A stretch of DNA of 64,000 nt from positions 248,001-312,000 of the forward strand of contig JAOASC010000016.1 of the NCBI GenBank assembly GCA_025210295.1, given 5' to 3'. The stretch is from Flavobacteriales bacterium (GTDB lineage Bacteria > Bacteroidota > Bacteroidia > Flavobacteriales_D > Parvicellaceae). The position numbers were made by a program, and so were the translations under genes. Below are positions 15,175 to 49,966 of this stretch, in pieces (position 1 is the first letter of the stretch; each line of letters starts with the position of its first letter). Below the pieces are notes generated by a model, which was given only the letters and a program-made list of their open reading frames with translations, searched no databases and was not told where the DNA came from.

Positions 15175-15831
15175 ATGCTTAAAACAGCTTTTATATCCCT
15201 CAATATTGCATTGATTTCTTGTACAGGATTTTCAGAAAAATCACCTGCTGATCAAAACAAATCTGAACCTATTGTACAACCAACAGAACCTCAATATAAG
15301 TTGGATACGATAAGGCTTCAAAACAAAGCCAAAGAAGCTTTAACCTATTGCAAAAAAAACAAAATGAACAGTAATTATTGCGTTTTAATTGATATGCATA
15401 TTCACTCTGGAAGAAATAGGTTATTCTTATGGGATTTTAAAGCCAATAAAATCGTTTTATCAGGTCTATGTAGTCATGGATGTGGAGATGAACCTTGGGG
15501 ATTAGACAACACCAAGGACTCCCCTATTTTTAGTAACCAACCCGATAGTCACCTTTCATCTTTGGGAAAATATAAAATCGGTAAAAGAGGTTGGAGTAAT
15601 TGGGGGATTCATGTCAATTACAAACTACATGGCCTCGATAAAACAAACAGTAATGCTTACAAACGTATCATTGTTTTACATTCTTGGGAAGCAGTTGAAG
15701 AGAATGAGACCTACCCTTATGGCACTCCTGAAGGTTGGGGATGTCCAGCAATTAATAATGATAAGATGAAAGAGCTTGACGCTTATTTGGAAAAAGAAAA
15801 AACACCTGTTTTACTTTGGATTTATAATTGA
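15175..15831 (+). CDS. Lipoprotein L,D-transpeptidase-like protein (YkuD_2), copy 2
   Basis: 218 residues, tandem paralogue of the preceding gene. Lipobox LISC at about 13-16 after a short MLKTAFISLN signal. The two proteins share YKIGKRG, SNxGIHVNYKLHGL, RIIVLHS, WGCPA and the identical ending PVLLWIYN. In this copy the Ser two residues before the Gly-Cys of SxGC is Gly (EGWGCPA instead of TSWGCPA); the Cys and upstream His residues are kept, so activity is plausible. The ATG at 15175 gives a normal lipoprotein signal. It is 21 bp from copy 1, and the same operon is likely. A long repeat region begins directly after it. Confidence 0.85.
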   Translation: MLKTAFISLNIALISCTGFSEKSPADQNKSEPIVQPTEPQYKLDTIRLQNKAKEALTYCKKNKMNSNYCVLIDMHIHSGRNRLFLWDFKANKIVLSGLCSHGCGDEPWGLDNTKDSPIFSNQPDSHLSSLGKYKIGKRGWSNWGIHVNYKLHGLDKTNSNAYKRIIVLHSWEAVEENETYPYGTPEGWGCPAINNDKMKELDAYLEKEKTPVLLWIYN

Positions 15832-15890
15832 GTCTTACCTAAAACAGGTATACTATTTAGCTGTCATATTTACCACCATCCACACCATCT

Positions 15891-16500
15891 AATTGTCTTT
15901 ATTCTTTATTCTATTTTCTTTATTCTATTTTCTAACTAAATAGGTCGTCTAGTTCTCGATACACCTCCTTTGTCGGAACTCGAACTGACTGGATTAATGC
16001 TGTAATTACATAATGCTATAATAATGGATTGAATCTTCTTCTTTGCTATTTTTCCATCATCTCATTAGCTTATTAGCTCATTCGCTAATTGTCTCTGTTC
16101 TTTGCTCTTTATTCTATTTTCTAACTAAATAGTTCGCCTAGTTCTCGATACTCCTCCTCTGTCGGCACTCGAACTGACTGTATTAATGCTGTAATGACAT
16201 AATGCTATAATAATGGATTGAATCTTCTTCTTTGCTATTTTTCCATCATCTCATTCGCTCATCATCTCATTAGCTAATTATCTCTATTCTTTGCTCTCTA
16301 TTCTATTTTCTAACTAAATAAGTCGCCTAGTTCTCGATACACCTCCTTTGTCGGCACTCGAACTGACTGTATTAATGCTGTAATGACATAATGCTATAAT
16401 AATGGATTGAATCTTCTTCTTTGCTATTTTTCCATCATCTCATTAGCTTATTATCTCATTAGCTAATTGTCTTTATTCTTTATTCTTTACTCTATCTTCT
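15891..16500. repeat. Tandem array of three 189-bp units
   Basis: Three near-identical units. The 40-bp core, which begins AGTTCTCGATAC and ends CTCGAACTGACT, is at 15951-15990, 16140-16179 and 16329-16368, so the period is exactly 189 bp twice. Each unit also contains a CT-rich heptad-like stretch (TATTCTTTATTC type), an AATGCTATAATAATGGATTG block, and an ATCATCTCATTAGCT block. A fourth unit starts at about 16465 and then diverges. The 7-bp surplus at the left end is one extra CT-rich heptad. Confidence 0.85.
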
Positions 16501-16674
16501 ATTCTAGTAGACTCTAGATAACAAGATTGTTTGTTGTATAAGGTTGGGGTGTAACGAACAATGTTTTATTTACTCTAATTCATAATCTATAATTCAAACC
16601 AATTTAAAGGATTTTATTACTCGTTTTTGGGGTGATATTGTATTAGGAGTAATAGTAATAATCATCTGTTGGCG

Positions 16675-16839
16675 TTATTTAATGGTCTTGTGAGATTGTT
16701 TTTCTATCACTATAGGTCTTATAACCCAATCCACCATAAATTTAACCCCAACGGTTACGTTAGTGAGCCCCTCCAGAAAGTTATTTAACCCAGAGCGAGG
16801 AGTAAAATACCCTATTGGATAGATCCAAAATAGCTCCAT
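16675..16839 (-). CDS. Possible small ORF, unsupported
   Basis: 54 codons from ATG 16839 to TAA, in the only non-repetitive part of the region. The product would start MELFWIYPIGYFTP and contain FLEGLTNVTVGVKF and VDWVIRPIVIEK. Base composition here is visibly richer in G and C than in the surrounding arrays, and the frame is open in otherwise AT-rich sequence. No family is recognised. It could be a small protein, the remnant of a larger gene broken by repeat expansion, or chance. Confidence 0.2.
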   Translation of the reverse strand: MELFWIYPIGYFTPRSGLNNFLEGLTNVTVGVKFMVDWVIRPIVIEKQSHKTIK

Positions 16840-16979
16840 ATCATTATTTTACCTTAACAACTGATTAAACAACCTTAATCTATATGATGATACAATGATA
16901 TAATGATGAAATGCTATAATAATTTAATGGGTTGAATCGTCTTCTCTATTCTCTATTCTCTATTCTTTGATCTTAATAA

Positions 16980-17265
16980 CGCTCCCATCATCTCATTAGC
17001 TCATCATCTCATTAGCTAATTGTCTCTGTTCTTTACTCTTTGCTCTCTATTCTATTTTCTCTTTTCTAACTAAATAGGTCGCCTAGTTCTCGATACACCT
17101 CCTTTGTCGGCACTCGAACTGACTGGATTTAATGCTATAATGATGCAATGGATTGAACCTTTTTCTCTATTCTTTATTCTTTACTCTATTTTCTAATTAA
17201 ATAATGCTTCCATCATCTAATTATCACATTAGCTAATCATCTCATTAGCTAATTATTCTATTGTC
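16980..17265. repeat. Degenerate copy of the 189-bp repeat unit
   Basis: The 40-bp core is intact at 17085-17124 (same orientation as the array at 15891-16500). It is preceded by the ATCATCTCATTAGCTCAT block and CT-rich heptads, and followed by AATGCTATAATGATG and again by CATTAGCTAATC blocks. Confidence 0.75.
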
Positions 17266-17391
17266 AAAAAAGCAGTCTTTTAAAACAATTTAACATCCTT
17301 TTGGACAATCTGTCAGCTATTTTGCCTTGGCATATAGTTTGACATTGAGAAAATCAAACGAAAACTTAATTTTTAAAATTTAGATATAACA

Positions 17392-19278
17392 ATGCAAAAA
17401 GGAACGATTAACATTCAAACGGAGAATATTTTTCCTATCATTAAGAAATTCTTGTATTCAGACACTGAAATTTTTGTTAGAGAGTTAGTTTCTAACGCAG
17501 TAGATGCATCACAAAAATTAAAAACACTTGCTTCTGCTGGAGAATTTAAAGGAGAACTAGGAGATTTACAAGTTGAAGTTATTTTAGATAAAGACAACAA
17601 AACTATTACGATTAGAGATAATGGTATTGGGATGACTGCTGATGAAGTCAACAAATACATCAATGAAATCGCTTTTTCTGGGGCAACTGAATTTGTTGAA
17701 AAATACAAAGACAAAGATGCCAACTCGATTATTGGTCATTTTGGATTAGGGTTCTACTCTGCTTTTATGGCTGCTGATAAAGTACATATCAGAACTTTAT
17801 CCCATAAAGATGGTTCTCAAGCTGTACAATGGGAATCAGATGGAACACCTGAGTTTACAATTACTGAAATAGAAAAAGATACCCGAGGAACTGATATTGT
17901 ACTATTTGTATCTGAAGATGCTAGCGAATTTTTAGAAGAAGCACGTCTAAGTACCATCTTAAATAAATACTGTAAATTCTTACCAGTAAATATTGTTTTT
18001 GGAGAGAAAAGTGAATTTAATGATGACCCATCTGGAGAAAAAGATGAGGAAGGGAATGTAAAGAAAATTGAAACTAAAGTTCCTAACATCTTAAACAATA
18101 CCAAACCTGCTTGGATTAAGAAACCAGCTGATTTAAGTGACGAAGATTATAAATCATTCTATAATGAATTATACCCTTTTACAGAAGATCCATTATTCAA
18201 TATTCATTTAAATGTTGACTATCCATTTAACCTTACTGGAATTTTATATTTCCCTAAATTAAAGAACAATGTAGAGGTTCAGAAAAATAAAATTCAATTA
18301 TATAGTAATCAAGTATTTATTACTGATTCTGTAGAGAATATCGTTCCTGATTTCTTAACATTATTACATGGTGTTATTGATTCTCCTGATATTCCATTAA
18401 ATGTATCTCGTTCTTATTTACAAAGTGATAGTAATGTTAAAAAGATTAGCACTTACATCACTAAAAAAGTAGCTGATAAATTAGCTCAAATGTTTAAAAA
18501 CGATAGAGCTGATTTCGAAGCAAAATGGGATGATATCAAAGTCTTTATTCAATATGGAATATTATCGGATGATAAATTTGAAGATAAAGCTCAAAAATTC
18601 AATTTATTTAAAGATACGGATGGAAAATATTATACTTCCGAAGAATATCAAGAAGCTGTTAAAGACAGCCAAACAGATAAAAACGGTAAATTAGTCTATT
18701 TGTATACACACAATATTGAAGAACACCATTCAATTATCGAAAGTGCTAAAGAAAAAGGATATAATGTACTAGTAATGGACAGTCCTCTTGACAGCCATTT
18801 GATTACAAAATTAGAACAAAAATTAAATGTAAGTTTTGCTCGTGTTGATGCTGATACTTTAGATAAATTAATTACTAAAGAAGAAGAATTACCTTCTAAA
18901 CTTTCAAAAGAAGATGAGGAAAAATTACAACCAGTTTTTGAAGCTAGTGTTAATAAAGAAAAGTTCACTGTACAATTCGAAAGTTTAAGTGAAACAGAAA
19001 AACCTGTTTTAATTACACAAAGTGAGTTTATACGTAGGATGAAAGAACAACAAGCTTTAGGTGGAGGAATGCACATGATGGGGAACTTCCCTGAAATGTT
19101 TAACCTAGTGGTTAACAACAATCATCCATTAGTCTCTAAGATTTTAAATGAATCTGATGCTGCTAAAAAAGAAAGTTTAGCAAAACAAGCTATTGATTTG
19201 GCTTTACTTTCCAATGGGATGTTAAAAGGTGCAGATTTGACCAACTTTATCAACCGAAGTTTAAACTTGATTGATTAA
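17392..19278 (+). CDS. htpG: Molecular chaperone HtpG (Hsp90)
   Basis: 628 residues, the normal bacterial length. N-terminal GHKL ATPase domain with ELVSNAVDAS (about 31-40, containing the Asn that binds Mg-ATP), DNGIGM and GHFGLGFYSAFM; middle domain with NVSRSYLQ; C-terminal dimerisation domain from about 500. A dimeric ATP-dependent chaperone in the cytoplasm. It forms its own transcription unit, with a terminator directly behind it. It is framed by repeat arrays in opposite orientation (15.9-17.3 kb and 20.6-21.0 kb), which could allow inversion of the block. Confidence 0.97.
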   Translation: MQKGTINIQTENIFPIIKKFLYSDTEIFVRELVSNAVDASQKLKTLASAGEFKGELGDLQVEVILDKDNKTITIRDNGIGMTADEVNKYINEIAFSGATEFVEKYKDKDANSIIGHFGLGFYSAFMAADKVHIRTLSHKDGSQAVQWESDGTPEFTITEIEKDTRGTDIVLFVSEDASEFLEEARLSTILNKYCKFLPVNIVFGEKSEFNDDPSGEKDEEGNVKKIETKVPNILNNTKPAWIKKPADLSDEDYKSFYNELYPFTEDPLFNIHLNVDYPFNLTGILYFPKLKNNVEVQKNKIQLYSNQVFITDSVENIVPDFLTLLHGVIDSPDIPLNVSRSYLQSDSNVKKISTYITKKVADKLAQMFKNDRADFEAKWDDIKVFIQYGILSDDKFEDKAQKFNLFKDTDGKYYTSEEYQEAVKDSQTDKNGKLVYLYTHNIEEHHSIIESAKEKGYNVLVMDSPLDSHLITKLEQKLNVSFARVDADTLDKLITKEEELPSKLSKEDEEKLQPVFEASVNKEKFTVQFESLSETEKPVLITQSEFIRRMKEQQALGGGMHMMGNFPEMFNLVVNNNHPLVSKILNESDAAKKESLAKQAIDLALLSNGMLKGADLTNFINRSLNLID

Positions 19279-19291
19279 TATAAACACAACA

Positions 19292-19325
19292 AAAAAGCCT
19301 TTTCTAACATTAGAAAAGGCTTTTT
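19292..19325. terminator. Bidirectional terminator of htpG and the 19324-19740 gene
   Basis: 14-bp stem AAAAGCCTTTTCTA / TAGAAAAGGCTTTT with A and T runs on both sides. The leftward gene's stop codon (19324-19326) lies in the T run. Confidence 0.85.
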
Positions 19326-19740
19326 ATTGTTTTTTTGAAATAACGATACGATTCCCTTTGATTTCTTTATTCCAATTGGAATCGAATAATAATGGTAAGT
19401 AACGTTGATATAGATTCAATCGCTTTTGAGGAAACTCTGTATCTTCATCAGCTGTTGGTTCTCCTGCAAATTCAAACCTATTAATGTGAGGATGCTCTTT
19501 AAAATAATTCTGAATAATAGCAACTATAGTAGCCATTACTCGATAAGCCTCTCCTTTATTGGTTAAAGCATATTCTTCGCCTTCATATTCATCATTTAAA
19601 ACACCAAAAACAATAGAAACATGTAATGGATTTCCTTCTTTTCGAGCAAAACGCACTTCATATTCAACGCCTTTAGCTGAAGTAAATTTGTAAATTTGCC
19701 CCGATGGGATTGGTGGATATTCAATAGGAAAACCGTTCAT
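19324..19740 (-). CDS. Conserved hypothetical protein
   Basis: 138 residues, starting MNGFPIEYPPIP. No signal peptide. Alternating strands and helices: IYKFTSAKGVEYEVRFARK, VSIVFGVLND, then a helix AYRVMATIVAIIQNYF, then HINRFEFAGEP, and a basic C-terminus. Similar small proteins occur across Bacteroidota and their phages, but I know no function. ATG 19740 is preferred to an in-frame codon at 19764 because a -7 box (TATTTTTG, minus strand, 19760-19753) lies between them. Transcribed towards htpG and divergently from the J-domain gene. Confidence 0.75.
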   Translation of the reverse strand: MNGFPIEYPPIPSGQIYKFTSAKGVEYEVRFARKEGNPLHVSIVFGVLNDEYEGEEYALTNKGEAYRVMATIVAIIQNYFKEHPHINRFEFAGEPTADEDTEFPQKRLNLYQRYLPLLFDSNWNKEIKGNRIVISKKQ

Positions 19741-19752
19741 AAGAATTAACAA

Positions 19753-19760
19753 CAAAAATA
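19753..19760 (-). promoter_or_regulatory. Candidate -7 element for the 19324-19740 gene
   Basis: TATTTTTG on the minus strand, 13 bp before ATG 19740. No clear TTTG partner. It decides the start of the gene. Confidence 0.4.
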
Positions 19761-19790
19761 GCACTTAATATTTTAAACTAATAGTAACGA

Positions 19791-20591
19791 ATGAATTTTA
19801 TAGGAATATTAGCAGGAATTATCATTTACTCTAGAACGCATAGCTTTTTATTGGCTATTGTAAGTTACTATTTGGTGAATTTAGTTGTTAAACAATTTAC
19901 CAATCAAAATAACAATAACTCCAATTCTCAAAGGCGTTATAGAGACTTTCAGCAACAGTTCCAACAACAATACCAACAACAAAATTCCAACTATTATAGA
20001 CAACGAATCTCCCAACATGATTTTGCTACTGCTTTATTAGTTTTATCAGCTGAAGTCATGAAATCTGATGGAAACCCTCTTAAATCGGAGTTAAATTATG
20101 TCAAACAGTTTTTTAATCAACAATTTTCACCCGAATTTGCTAAAAAACAAATGCTCGCTTTTAGAGATATTTTAAAGAAAAACTTTGATATACAACAAGT
20201 CTGTAATTTAATTAAACAAGCTCAGCCTCCCCAACAAAGAAGTGTCTTAGTACAATATTTATTTGGCATTGCTCAAGCCGACGGTCATGTCTCTGATGCT
20301 GAAGTAAAAACAATCAACAGAATTGCTGTTTTACTTGGTATTTCTTCCTATGAATTTGAACAGTTAAAAGCAATGTTTTATAAAAGTACGAGTAGTGCTT
20401 ACAAAACATTAGGGATTGATAAGAATGCAACTAATGATGAAGTTAAAAAGGCCTATAGAAAAATGGCTGTTAAACACCATCCTGATAAGTTTGCTCAAAT
20501 GGGTGAAGAATACCAAAAAGCTGCAAAAGAAAAATTCCAAAAAATACAAGATGCCTACGAAAACATAAAAAAAGAACGTGGAATGAATTGA
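19791..20591 (+). CDS. Membrane-anchored TerB/J-domain protein (DjlA-like)
   Basis: 266 residues. One N-terminal hydrophobic segment (about 3-33), then a Gln/Asn-rich linker (about 38-70), a TerB-like helical domain (about 75-180, with AQADGHVSDAEV) and a C-terminal J domain (about 198-262) with the HPD motif at about 230-232. The same order as E. coli DjlA: membrane anchor, TerB, J. It should stimulate a DnaK ATPase at the inner membrane. Its neighbour htpG is also a chaperone gene, though on the far side of a leftward gene. The repeat array starts right after its stop codon. Confidence 0.9.
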   Translation: MNFIGILAGIIIYSRTHSFLLAIVSYYLVNLVVKQFTNQNNNNSNSQRRYRDFQQQFQQQYQQQNSNYYRQRISQHDFATALLVLSAEVMKSDGNPLKSELNYVKQFFNQQFSPEFAKKQMLAFRDILKKNFDIQQVCNLIKQAQPPQQRSVLVQYLFGIAQADGHVSDAEVKTINRIAVLLGISSYEFEQLKAMFYKSTSSAYKTLGIDKNATNDEVKKAYRKMAVKHHPDKFAQMGEEYQKAAKEKFQKIQDAYENIKKERGMN

Positions 20592-21000
20592 GGGAAATTA
20601 GGTAATGAGATAATTAGCTAATGAGATGATGAGCTAATGGGATGATGAGCTAATGGGATGATGCAAGCATTATTAAGATTGAAGACGATAAAACTCAACC
20701 TTCTGCTAGTCAGTTCGAGTGCCGACAAAGGAGGTGTATCGAGAACTAGGTGGCTTGTTGAAATAGAAAATAGAATAGAGAATAGAGAACAGAGACAATT
20801 AGCTAATGTGATAATGAGCTAATGAGATGATGGAAGCATTATTAAGATTAAAGATGATAAGACTCAACCTTCTGCTAGTCAGTTCGAGTACCGACAGAGG
20901 AGGTGTATCGAGAACTATACGGCTTGTTGAAATAGAAAATAGAATAGAGAACAGAGATAATTAGCTAATGAGCTAATGAGCTAATGAGCTATAAATTATA
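20592..21000. repeat. Second repeat array, inverted relative to 15.9-17.3 kb
   Basis: About 410 bp without a gene. Two copies of the 40-bp core on the minus strand at 20708-20747 and 20877-20916 (period 169 bp). Between them are GAGCTAATGAGATGATG-type runs, AATAGAGAATAGAG heptads and a GCATTATTAAGATT block. The array runs from the last bases of the J-domain gene to the first codon of the rhomboid gene, so any promoter of the latter must lie within it. Confidence 0.85.
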
Positions 21001-21005
21001 AAATT

Positions 21006-21713
21006 TTGAAAAGACAAAGAAAACATACCATTTTAGCTGCTTTAGAATATCCTTTGATTATTCTTGCTTTGATGTGGTTAGTCTTTTTGATTGACTACCT
21101 CTTCCCTATTCAATTGGCACAATACGGAATTTTACCACGAAATAAAAGTGGATTAATTGGTATTCTTTTTTCCCCTCTACTTCACAGTACCAGAGATTTT
21201 ACCCACATTATCAATAATTCACCGCCATTTTTGATTCTAGGTTGGACACTTTTTTACTTCTATAGAAAGATTGCCTGGCAGATTCTCAGTTTATCATGGC
21301 TAGTAGGTGGATTATTCGTCTGGCTAGCAGCACGTAGCAACTATCATATAGGAATGAGTGGAGTCATTTATAGTTTAGCTTTTTTTCTATTTTTTAGTGG
21401 CGTATTTCGTAAAGAACTAAAACTAATGGCTATTTCGCTCTTTGTTGTATTTCTGTATGGAAGTATGGTTTGGGGGATTTTTCCTGGAGACCCTGGAATC
21501 TCATTTGAAGGCCATTTATTTGGTGCTATCGTTGGCGTAATACTAGCCTATTACTATAAAAAAGAAGGAGCTACTTTAAAAAAAAAAGTTTATGATTGGG
21601 AACGTGAAGAAGCCTTAGATAAAGAAATGGAAGCCAAAGGGTATAAAAAAGTAGTAGATCCAGAATCTGGCTTTACAGTCCACTACGAATACCAAGAAAA
21701 CTCCGAAAAATAA
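21006..21713 (+). CDS. Rhomboid family intramembrane serine protease
   Basis: 235 residues with about six membrane segments. The catalytic Ser is in the GMSG motif (about Ser118) and the catalytic His is in FEGHLFG (about His170). A HIINN segment at about 67-71 matches the conserved HxxxN of the second transmembrane region. It cleaves transmembrane substrates within the inner membrane; targets unknown. The start is TTG at 21006: the frame is closed by TGA at 20985-20987, and the next ATG (codon 23) would remove most of the first membrane segment. The upstream sequence is entirely repeat array. Confidence 0.88.
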   Translation: MKRQRKHTILAALEYPLIILALMWLVFLIDYLFPIQLAQYGILPRNKSGLIGILFSPLLHSTRDFTHIINNSPPFLILGWTLFYFYRKIAWQILSLSWLVGGLFVWLAARSNYHIGMSGVIYSLAFFLFFSGVFRKELKLMAISLFVVFLYGSMVWGIFPGDPGISFEGHLFGAIVGVILAYYYKKEGATLKKKVYDWEREEALDKEMEAKGYKKVVDPESGFTVHYEYQENSEK

Positions 21714-49872: not shown

Positions 49873-49966
49873 TTAGAAGAGAGAAGAGAGAGAAGAGAAC
49901 AAAGAACAGAGAACAGAGAGAACAGAGAACAGAGAGAATAGAGAATAGAGAATAGAGAATAGAGAC
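49873..49966. repeat. Purine-rich heptad microsatellite
   Basis: Tandem 7-mers of the type AGAGAAC and GAATAGA (the last four copies are perfect) and interspersed AGAGAGA. It lies between the stop codons of the rightward toroid-like gene and the leftward elaA gene. The same heptads occur inside the arrays at 15.9-17.3 and 20.6-21.0 kb, but here without the 40-bp core. Confidence 0.85.

Follow-up and report, generated by a model that had tools for sequence, protein, structure and literature searches.

What is the origin of the evenly spaced repeats that lie upstream of htpG in this genome, and does their period carry any meaning? The window analysed here is a 64,000 nt stretch of DNA (C16:248001-312000) from a 4.2-Mb draft genome that is 95% complete, and the repeat array has a YkuD_2-domain gene and htpG as its immediate neighbours. 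The original prediction described three exact 189-bp units in non-coding DNA and read them as a recent tandem duplication of a compound unit or as a selected structure. Analysis with TRF returned a tandem repeat at 15903-16501 (period 189, 3.2 copies, 91% matches, 0% indels, score 1023), and the core starts (15951, 16140 and 16329) are exactly 189 bp apart, twice. The period is exact, as claimed, but the units vary in sequence, with identities to unit 1 of 92% (unit 2) and 94% (unit 3), and the copies of the 40-bp core, correctly placed but taken to be identical, differ at 1-3 positions. A scan of the gap between YkuD_2 and htpG confirmed that the array is non-coding, with no ORF reaching 100 aa from 15831 to 17392. 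The unit is compound and no microsatellite, as had been proposed, and combines a core of ~45 bp with octad blocks and a CT-rich heptad block (Table 1). Promoter-like sites are slightly more numerous in the array than in shuffled sequence (12 vs 7.7 ± 3.0), although the sigma-70 consensus is poorly suited to Bacteroidota, and the array holds no terminator-like sites. The family extends past the three units to a fourth core and a second array of opposite orientation. Elsewhere in the window (49875-49965), a degenerate AGAAGAG/AGAACAG heptad tract without a core adjoins a GNAT acetyltransferase gene.

Table 1. Array components and neighbouring genes in the window, and related elements nested in Flavo-1-like hairpins.
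Feature	Position	Strand	Basis
Array, three 189-bp units with leading and trailing heptad/octad sequence	15891-16513	.	TRF, core positions
Core 1 (GTCAGTTCGAGTTCCGACAAAGGAGGTGTATCGAGAACT)	15951-15989	-	
Core 2	16140-16178	-	
Core 3	16329-16367	-	
Unit 1 post-core octad block (TAATGCTGTAATTACATAATGCTATAATAATGG...), bounds approximate, recurs in units 2 and 3	15990-16035	.	24-unit alignment
Unit 1 second octad block (ATCATCTCATTAGCTTATTAGC...), bounds approximate, recurs in units 2 and 3	16056-16093	.	TRF and 24-unit alignment
Unit 1 CT-rich heptad block (CTGTTCTTTGCTCTTTATTCTATTTTCT), bounds approximate, recurs in units 2 and 3	16094-16125	.	24-unit alignment
Related octad and heptad stretch that includes core 4	16880-17260	.	
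Core 4	17085-17123	-	
Second array of the family, inverted relative to the first, period 169, flanked by TerB/DnaJ-domain and rhomboid genes	20603-20991	+	TRF
Cores of second array	20709-20747, 20878-20916	+	
Upstream neighbour, YkuD_2 L,D-transpeptidase-domain gene	15175-15831	+	
Downstream neighbour, htpG/HSP90	17392-19278	+	
Elements as exact apical insert of a Flavo-1-like hairpin, congener G002	L300:1957-2079, L299:1969-2083, L305:2003-2113, L304:1931-2048		Rfam
Element as apical insert of a Flavo-1-like hairpin, this genome (C1:63.3k)	L231:4285-4402		Rfam

A genome-wide search with the core, as had been suggested, found it conserved at other sites. There were 30 core matches (≤3 mismatches) against 0 for a reversed control pattern, so its recurrence is not due to chance, and 54 matches to the array unit. 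The 30 cores, found on both strands, are grouped into roughly a dozen arrays or stubs, the periods of which range from 169 to 209 bp, and represent one inner stem type, GCCGAC-AAA-GGAGG, mostly accompanied by octad/heptad spacers. Within a unit, the core is followed by octads (AATGCTGT AATGATTT ...), a linker, a second run of octads (ATCATCTC ATTAGCTT ...), the CT-rich heptads and, ahead of the next core, a short segment. Across 24 aligned units, core identity was 0.94 within arrays and 0.89 between them, and non-core identity was 0.78 within and 0.64 between. The greater likeness within arrays fits the prediction of recent local duplication, and this part of the original reading is upheld. 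Gaps in the alignment are largely octad or heptad steps (judged by eye), so that the 189-bp period looks like a lack of slippage among recent copies and not like a length constraint. A reading of the period as a sign of selection is not supported, given the spread of periods among arrays of the same family. The first observation was thus right and the duplication reading mostly right, but the 189-bp period is nothing special; periods vary, yet the core is conserved and has copies elsewhere, and what is conserved appears to be the hairpin core rather than the period. The palindromic nature of the core and its spread across the phylum had been missed.

Dispersal of the whole compound unit to about a dozen loci might indicate a MITE or other transposon with fixed ends, of which the 189-bp repeat would be the unit, but arrays start and stop at differing unit phases and isolated copies consist of the core only, both of which argue against a mobile unit with fixed ends. 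Spacer lengths change as well, and such an origin is very unlikely. Octad and heptad blocks also occur without a core elsewhere in the genome. There is next to no likelihood that this is a CRISPR or integron-type array, even though a palindromic core recurs at regular spacing: judged by its spacers the array is no CRISPR, as these are repeated within arrays (at the non-core identity given above) instead of unique and are far longer than CRISPR spacers, and since the stretches that separate the cores hold no ORF reaching 100 aa, there are no integron cassettes.

Further tandem sets in the same genome have unrelated inner stems (C45, five copies at 166-168 bp; C47, four copies at 185-216 bp; and a pair on C48), and tandem growth is therefore a trait of this kind of element and not of one sequence. 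All of the arrays here are of a single type and head-to-tail only. Several contig ends fall inside arrays; two of these ends, the starts of C4 and C45, border a region that in a congener is intergenic and uninterrupted. The arrays therefore probably broke the assembly, suggesting a reason for the positions of its breaks, and array copy numbers should be taken as minima.

On the minus strand, the core reads as a bulged hairpin, GTCAGTTCGAGT-(inner stem)-TATCGAGAACT, and the general form of the dispersed intergenic element is YGTCA-N-TTCGAG-(variable inner stem)-TCGAGAA-N'-T. The stem consists of 5 bp (A-N-T-T-C), a GA bulge, 2 bp and a hypervariable inner stem, with an inner length of 8-45 nt. 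The box pair N:N' is G:C in 165 cases, C:G in 68 and A:T in 16, and across 263 unique elements it is of Watson-Crick type in 95.1%, compared with 49.3 ± 2.5% after shuffling. Inner arms match their own counterpart far better than a swapped one (longest stem 5.36 bp against 2.44 ± 0.14 bp; 67 non-redundant elements), and the second inner pair in this genome's family is C:G in 24 copies, T:A in four and C:A in one, pointing to compensatory change. The asymmetric GA bulge is kept, with 204 asymmetric and 0 symmetric copies in 0.92 Mb of loci that were chosen by the asymmetric pattern. The tag preceding the stem is TGTC in 138 and CGTC in 96 of the 263 unique elements (YGTC in 234), while the cores of the window bear AGTC on the tag side; the 3' flank after N' is mostly TTT or TAT.

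The fold (N:N' pairing, inner-arm pairing and an unrepaired GA bulge) has been kept while the inner stems differ. Part of the covariation could have come from template-switch correction of imperfect palindromes and not from selection, although the bulge, being left unrepaired, argues against that source. When folded alone, the 91-nt region was not distinctive (z = -1.5 as DNA and -0.3 as RNA), and the evidence for the hairpin is thus comparative. Extended outer stems are striking in single elements (L134, L097) and weak on average, and wobble pairs, used as a test for strand preference, gave no clear signal.

Boxes with other inner stems were present in 34 of 399 genomes of the order, and the generic box form in 38 of 395 genomes across the phylum, with one control hit. 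Many named Flavobacteriia carry them, including Tenacibaculum, Polaribacter, Chryseobacterium, Winogradskyella and Psychroflexus. A Psychroflexus curvus locus (L183) shares its element coordinates with genome G449, which falls in the class of the window but in a different order; the window would therefore come from a Bacteroidota bacterium of the class that includes Flavobacteriaceae, though of another order under that taxonomy. Polaribacter has tandem arrays with other stems, and Olleya and Winogradskyella have arrays of dimers. In a further genome of the order (L103/G075, C417:4598-4942), elements sharing a single stem type (GCCGCGCATTTTCGCGCGGTG) recur three times at exactly 152 bp, forming an independent array of exact period. 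An element was also found on a contig labelled Candidatus Dojkabacteria (L172:2353-2396), a label that is doubtful because the other named carriers are all Bacteroidota, and which is probably a binning error. A search for phage, plasmid or viral copies of the element found none. In the named Flavobacteriia, pairs of elements are inverted (90 +- and 58 -+) more often than they share the same orientation (51), and inverted neighbours are often of different N type. A strict heterodimer rule for inverted pairs was considered and dropped, as a smaller independent sample contained five G/G pairs, leaving a tendency only.

Among the named loci, 132 of 136 element clusters lie outside ORFs. Gaps that hold elements are convergent in 30 cases, co-directional in 67 and divergent in eight, compared with 39, 162 and 79 for element-free gaps (p = 6e-6), and at the median an element lies 67 bp from a gene 3' end and 140 bp from a 5' end. 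Within co-directional gaps, 45 single-orientation elements are sense and 24 antisense (sum over three sets), a difference that is suggestive only. This placement near 3' ends, the avoidance of divergent gaps and the sense excess would suit a functional 3'-end hairpin (acting on RNA as stabiliser or attenuator, or bound by a protein or by gyrase, as in E. coli BIMEs) that is selected at its sites and of which the arrays are extra copies, as would conservation of the fold without the sequence and the sites held in common with a congener despite different stems (see below). Avoidance of promoter gaps is, however, also expected if insertions are harmful there, and both orientations are found, the htpG array being antisense to its neighbouring genes and the TerB-rhomboid array sense. 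The array also lacks an Rfam match, copy number varies between congeners, and the distribution across the order is patchy. Selection of the hairpin at its sites is, on this evidence, an unlikely explanation of the arrays; the core may act as an RNA hairpin at 3' ends or as a binding site for a protein.

Comparison with the congener G002 showed that four of its nine element sites are also element sites in the present genome, with stems and copy numbers that differ. The shared sites lie upstream of htpG, at the C4/C45 junction, at C47:93k and at C48:217.8k. Other sites are empty in congeners (the TerB-rhomboid site in G005 and G006; C16:436k and C20:110k in G002), absences that are tentative since the congener assemblies are fragmented. 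Shared sites with other stems, together with empty sites, suggest that some sites are old and persistent, and that the GCCGAC-AAA-GGAGG stem type is a recent expansion. At the C47:93k site, where the present genome has a single element, G002 carries an independent tandem array of another core variant with a period of ~90 bp (L304:1450-1750), another case of arrays arising at element sites. Beside a further G002 element (L302:1945-2000) there are about six successive copies of the octad TAGTCAGT. This octad is similar to the element's own 5' box (AGTCAGTT), a hint that the core can itself give rise to octad tracts.

The elements are dispersed hairpins of conserved fold, with local tandem duplication, VNTR-like spacers and an intergenic, 3'-biased placement, and the array in the window is probably a non-coding, lineage-specific, head-to-tail amplification of a REP-like Bacteroidota hairpin element. 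Such an element would first have been mobilised to new sites and then amplified locally. To judge from the repeat patterns, a hairpin formed on one strand during replication may favour template slippage, and the resulting direct repeats could then shift copy number by unequal recombination; the two processes together would give variable periods and variable start and end phases. Slippage of octads and heptads would alter unit length, so that three neighbours at exactly 189 bp would be recent, unslipped copies, and elements would be tolerated mainly downstream of genes. Counting against local amplification is the sharing of sites with a congener, as some copies evidently persist and this is less well explained by pure neutrality. 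Persistence of sites between species, with turnover of stem and copy number, might instead reflect a hairpin-specific recombinase or repair activity that recognises the conserved asymmetric boxes and swaps or rebuilds the inner stem in place, leaving tandem arrays as by-products, but this is rather improbable.

As for the mobilisation step, the REP-like size, intergenic placement and inverted dimers recall REPs moved in trans by a RAYT (TnpA_REP, a Y1 HUH transposase), and Y1 genes are somewhat commoner in carriers (21 of 34) than in non-carriers (152 of 365). Movement of this kind is nonetheless highly improbable. The present genome, at its 95% completeness, has no Y1_Tnp match, 13 of the 34 carriers have no Y1 gene, and 17 Y1 genes in carriers have no element nearby; a Y1 gene flanked by repeats, the arrangement of RAYT-associated REPs (REPtrons), was found neither in this genome nor among those 17. 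Furthermore, CGTC-tagged REPs, which are reported in Bacteroidetes, have no known dedicated transposase (Di Nocera et al. 2013, PMC3733652).

At the gathering threshold, Rfam gave no match in the window or in nine array-bearing loci, and a permissive scan of 15700-21100 returned scattered sub-threshold matches, none of them over 15891-17260. The window arrays do not match Flavo-1 RNA (RF01705) at its 42-bit gathering cut-off, while some elements of the genus form the apical insert of a Flavo-1-like hairpin (37.4-42.5 bits; Table 1). In 13 sampled loci elsewhere there was one Flavo-1 match, away from any listed element, and a regular-expression test found no nesting beyond the genus, although within the genus it picked up just part of the nested copies known from Rfam. 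Published RNA-seq data show Flavo-1 matches in sense or antisense indistinctly (PMC9723704), so Flavo-1 may be a DNA repeat rather than an RNA.

The element family is the interesting part, beyond the array itself. A local curiosity becomes a phylum-wide hairpin family that is defined by its boxes and fold and not by sequence, and two questions become testable: by what means CGTC-type palindromes (for which no transposase is known) move, and why palindromes of this sort nucleate tandem arrays. Searches of the accessible literature, by sequence as well as by topic, turned up no account of the element or its family, and the nearest known kinds are CGTC-tagged REPs and BIME-like inverted dimers. 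In the BIMEs of E. coli, REPs of different types alternate as inverted pairs, at times in tandem. Such pairs, some of them in tandem, are also seen in the present family, but the sequences are unrelated, the arrays of the present genome are single-type and head-to-tail, and partner types differ as a tendency only (for BIMEs and RAYTs, see PMC2817692). CGTC-REPs have an unpaired CGTC/TGTC tag, an 8-9 bp stem that opens with A-T pairs, a 4-5 nt loop and a short unpaired 3' tail, mostly CCA; they occur mainly as head-head dimers, with head-to-tail pairs and clusters negligible or rare, and lie in intergenic regions between co-directional or convergent genes, near 3' ends (PMC3733652). The present elements resemble them in the YGTC tag before the stem (AGTC in the window cores), in their intergenic, 3'-biased placement and in having no dedicated transposase known. 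They differ in having a 5 bp stem that pairs A-N and not A-T at its start, followed by the GA bulge, 2 bp and a long hypervariable inner stem, and in ending mostly in TTT or TAT without a CCA tail. In arrangement the picture is mixed: inverted dimers predominate in the named Flavobacteriia, and the arrays of this genome are all head-to-tail. With stem, loop, 3' tail and clustering all different, the element is best placed as a variant of the REP kind that lies outside the published CGTC families.
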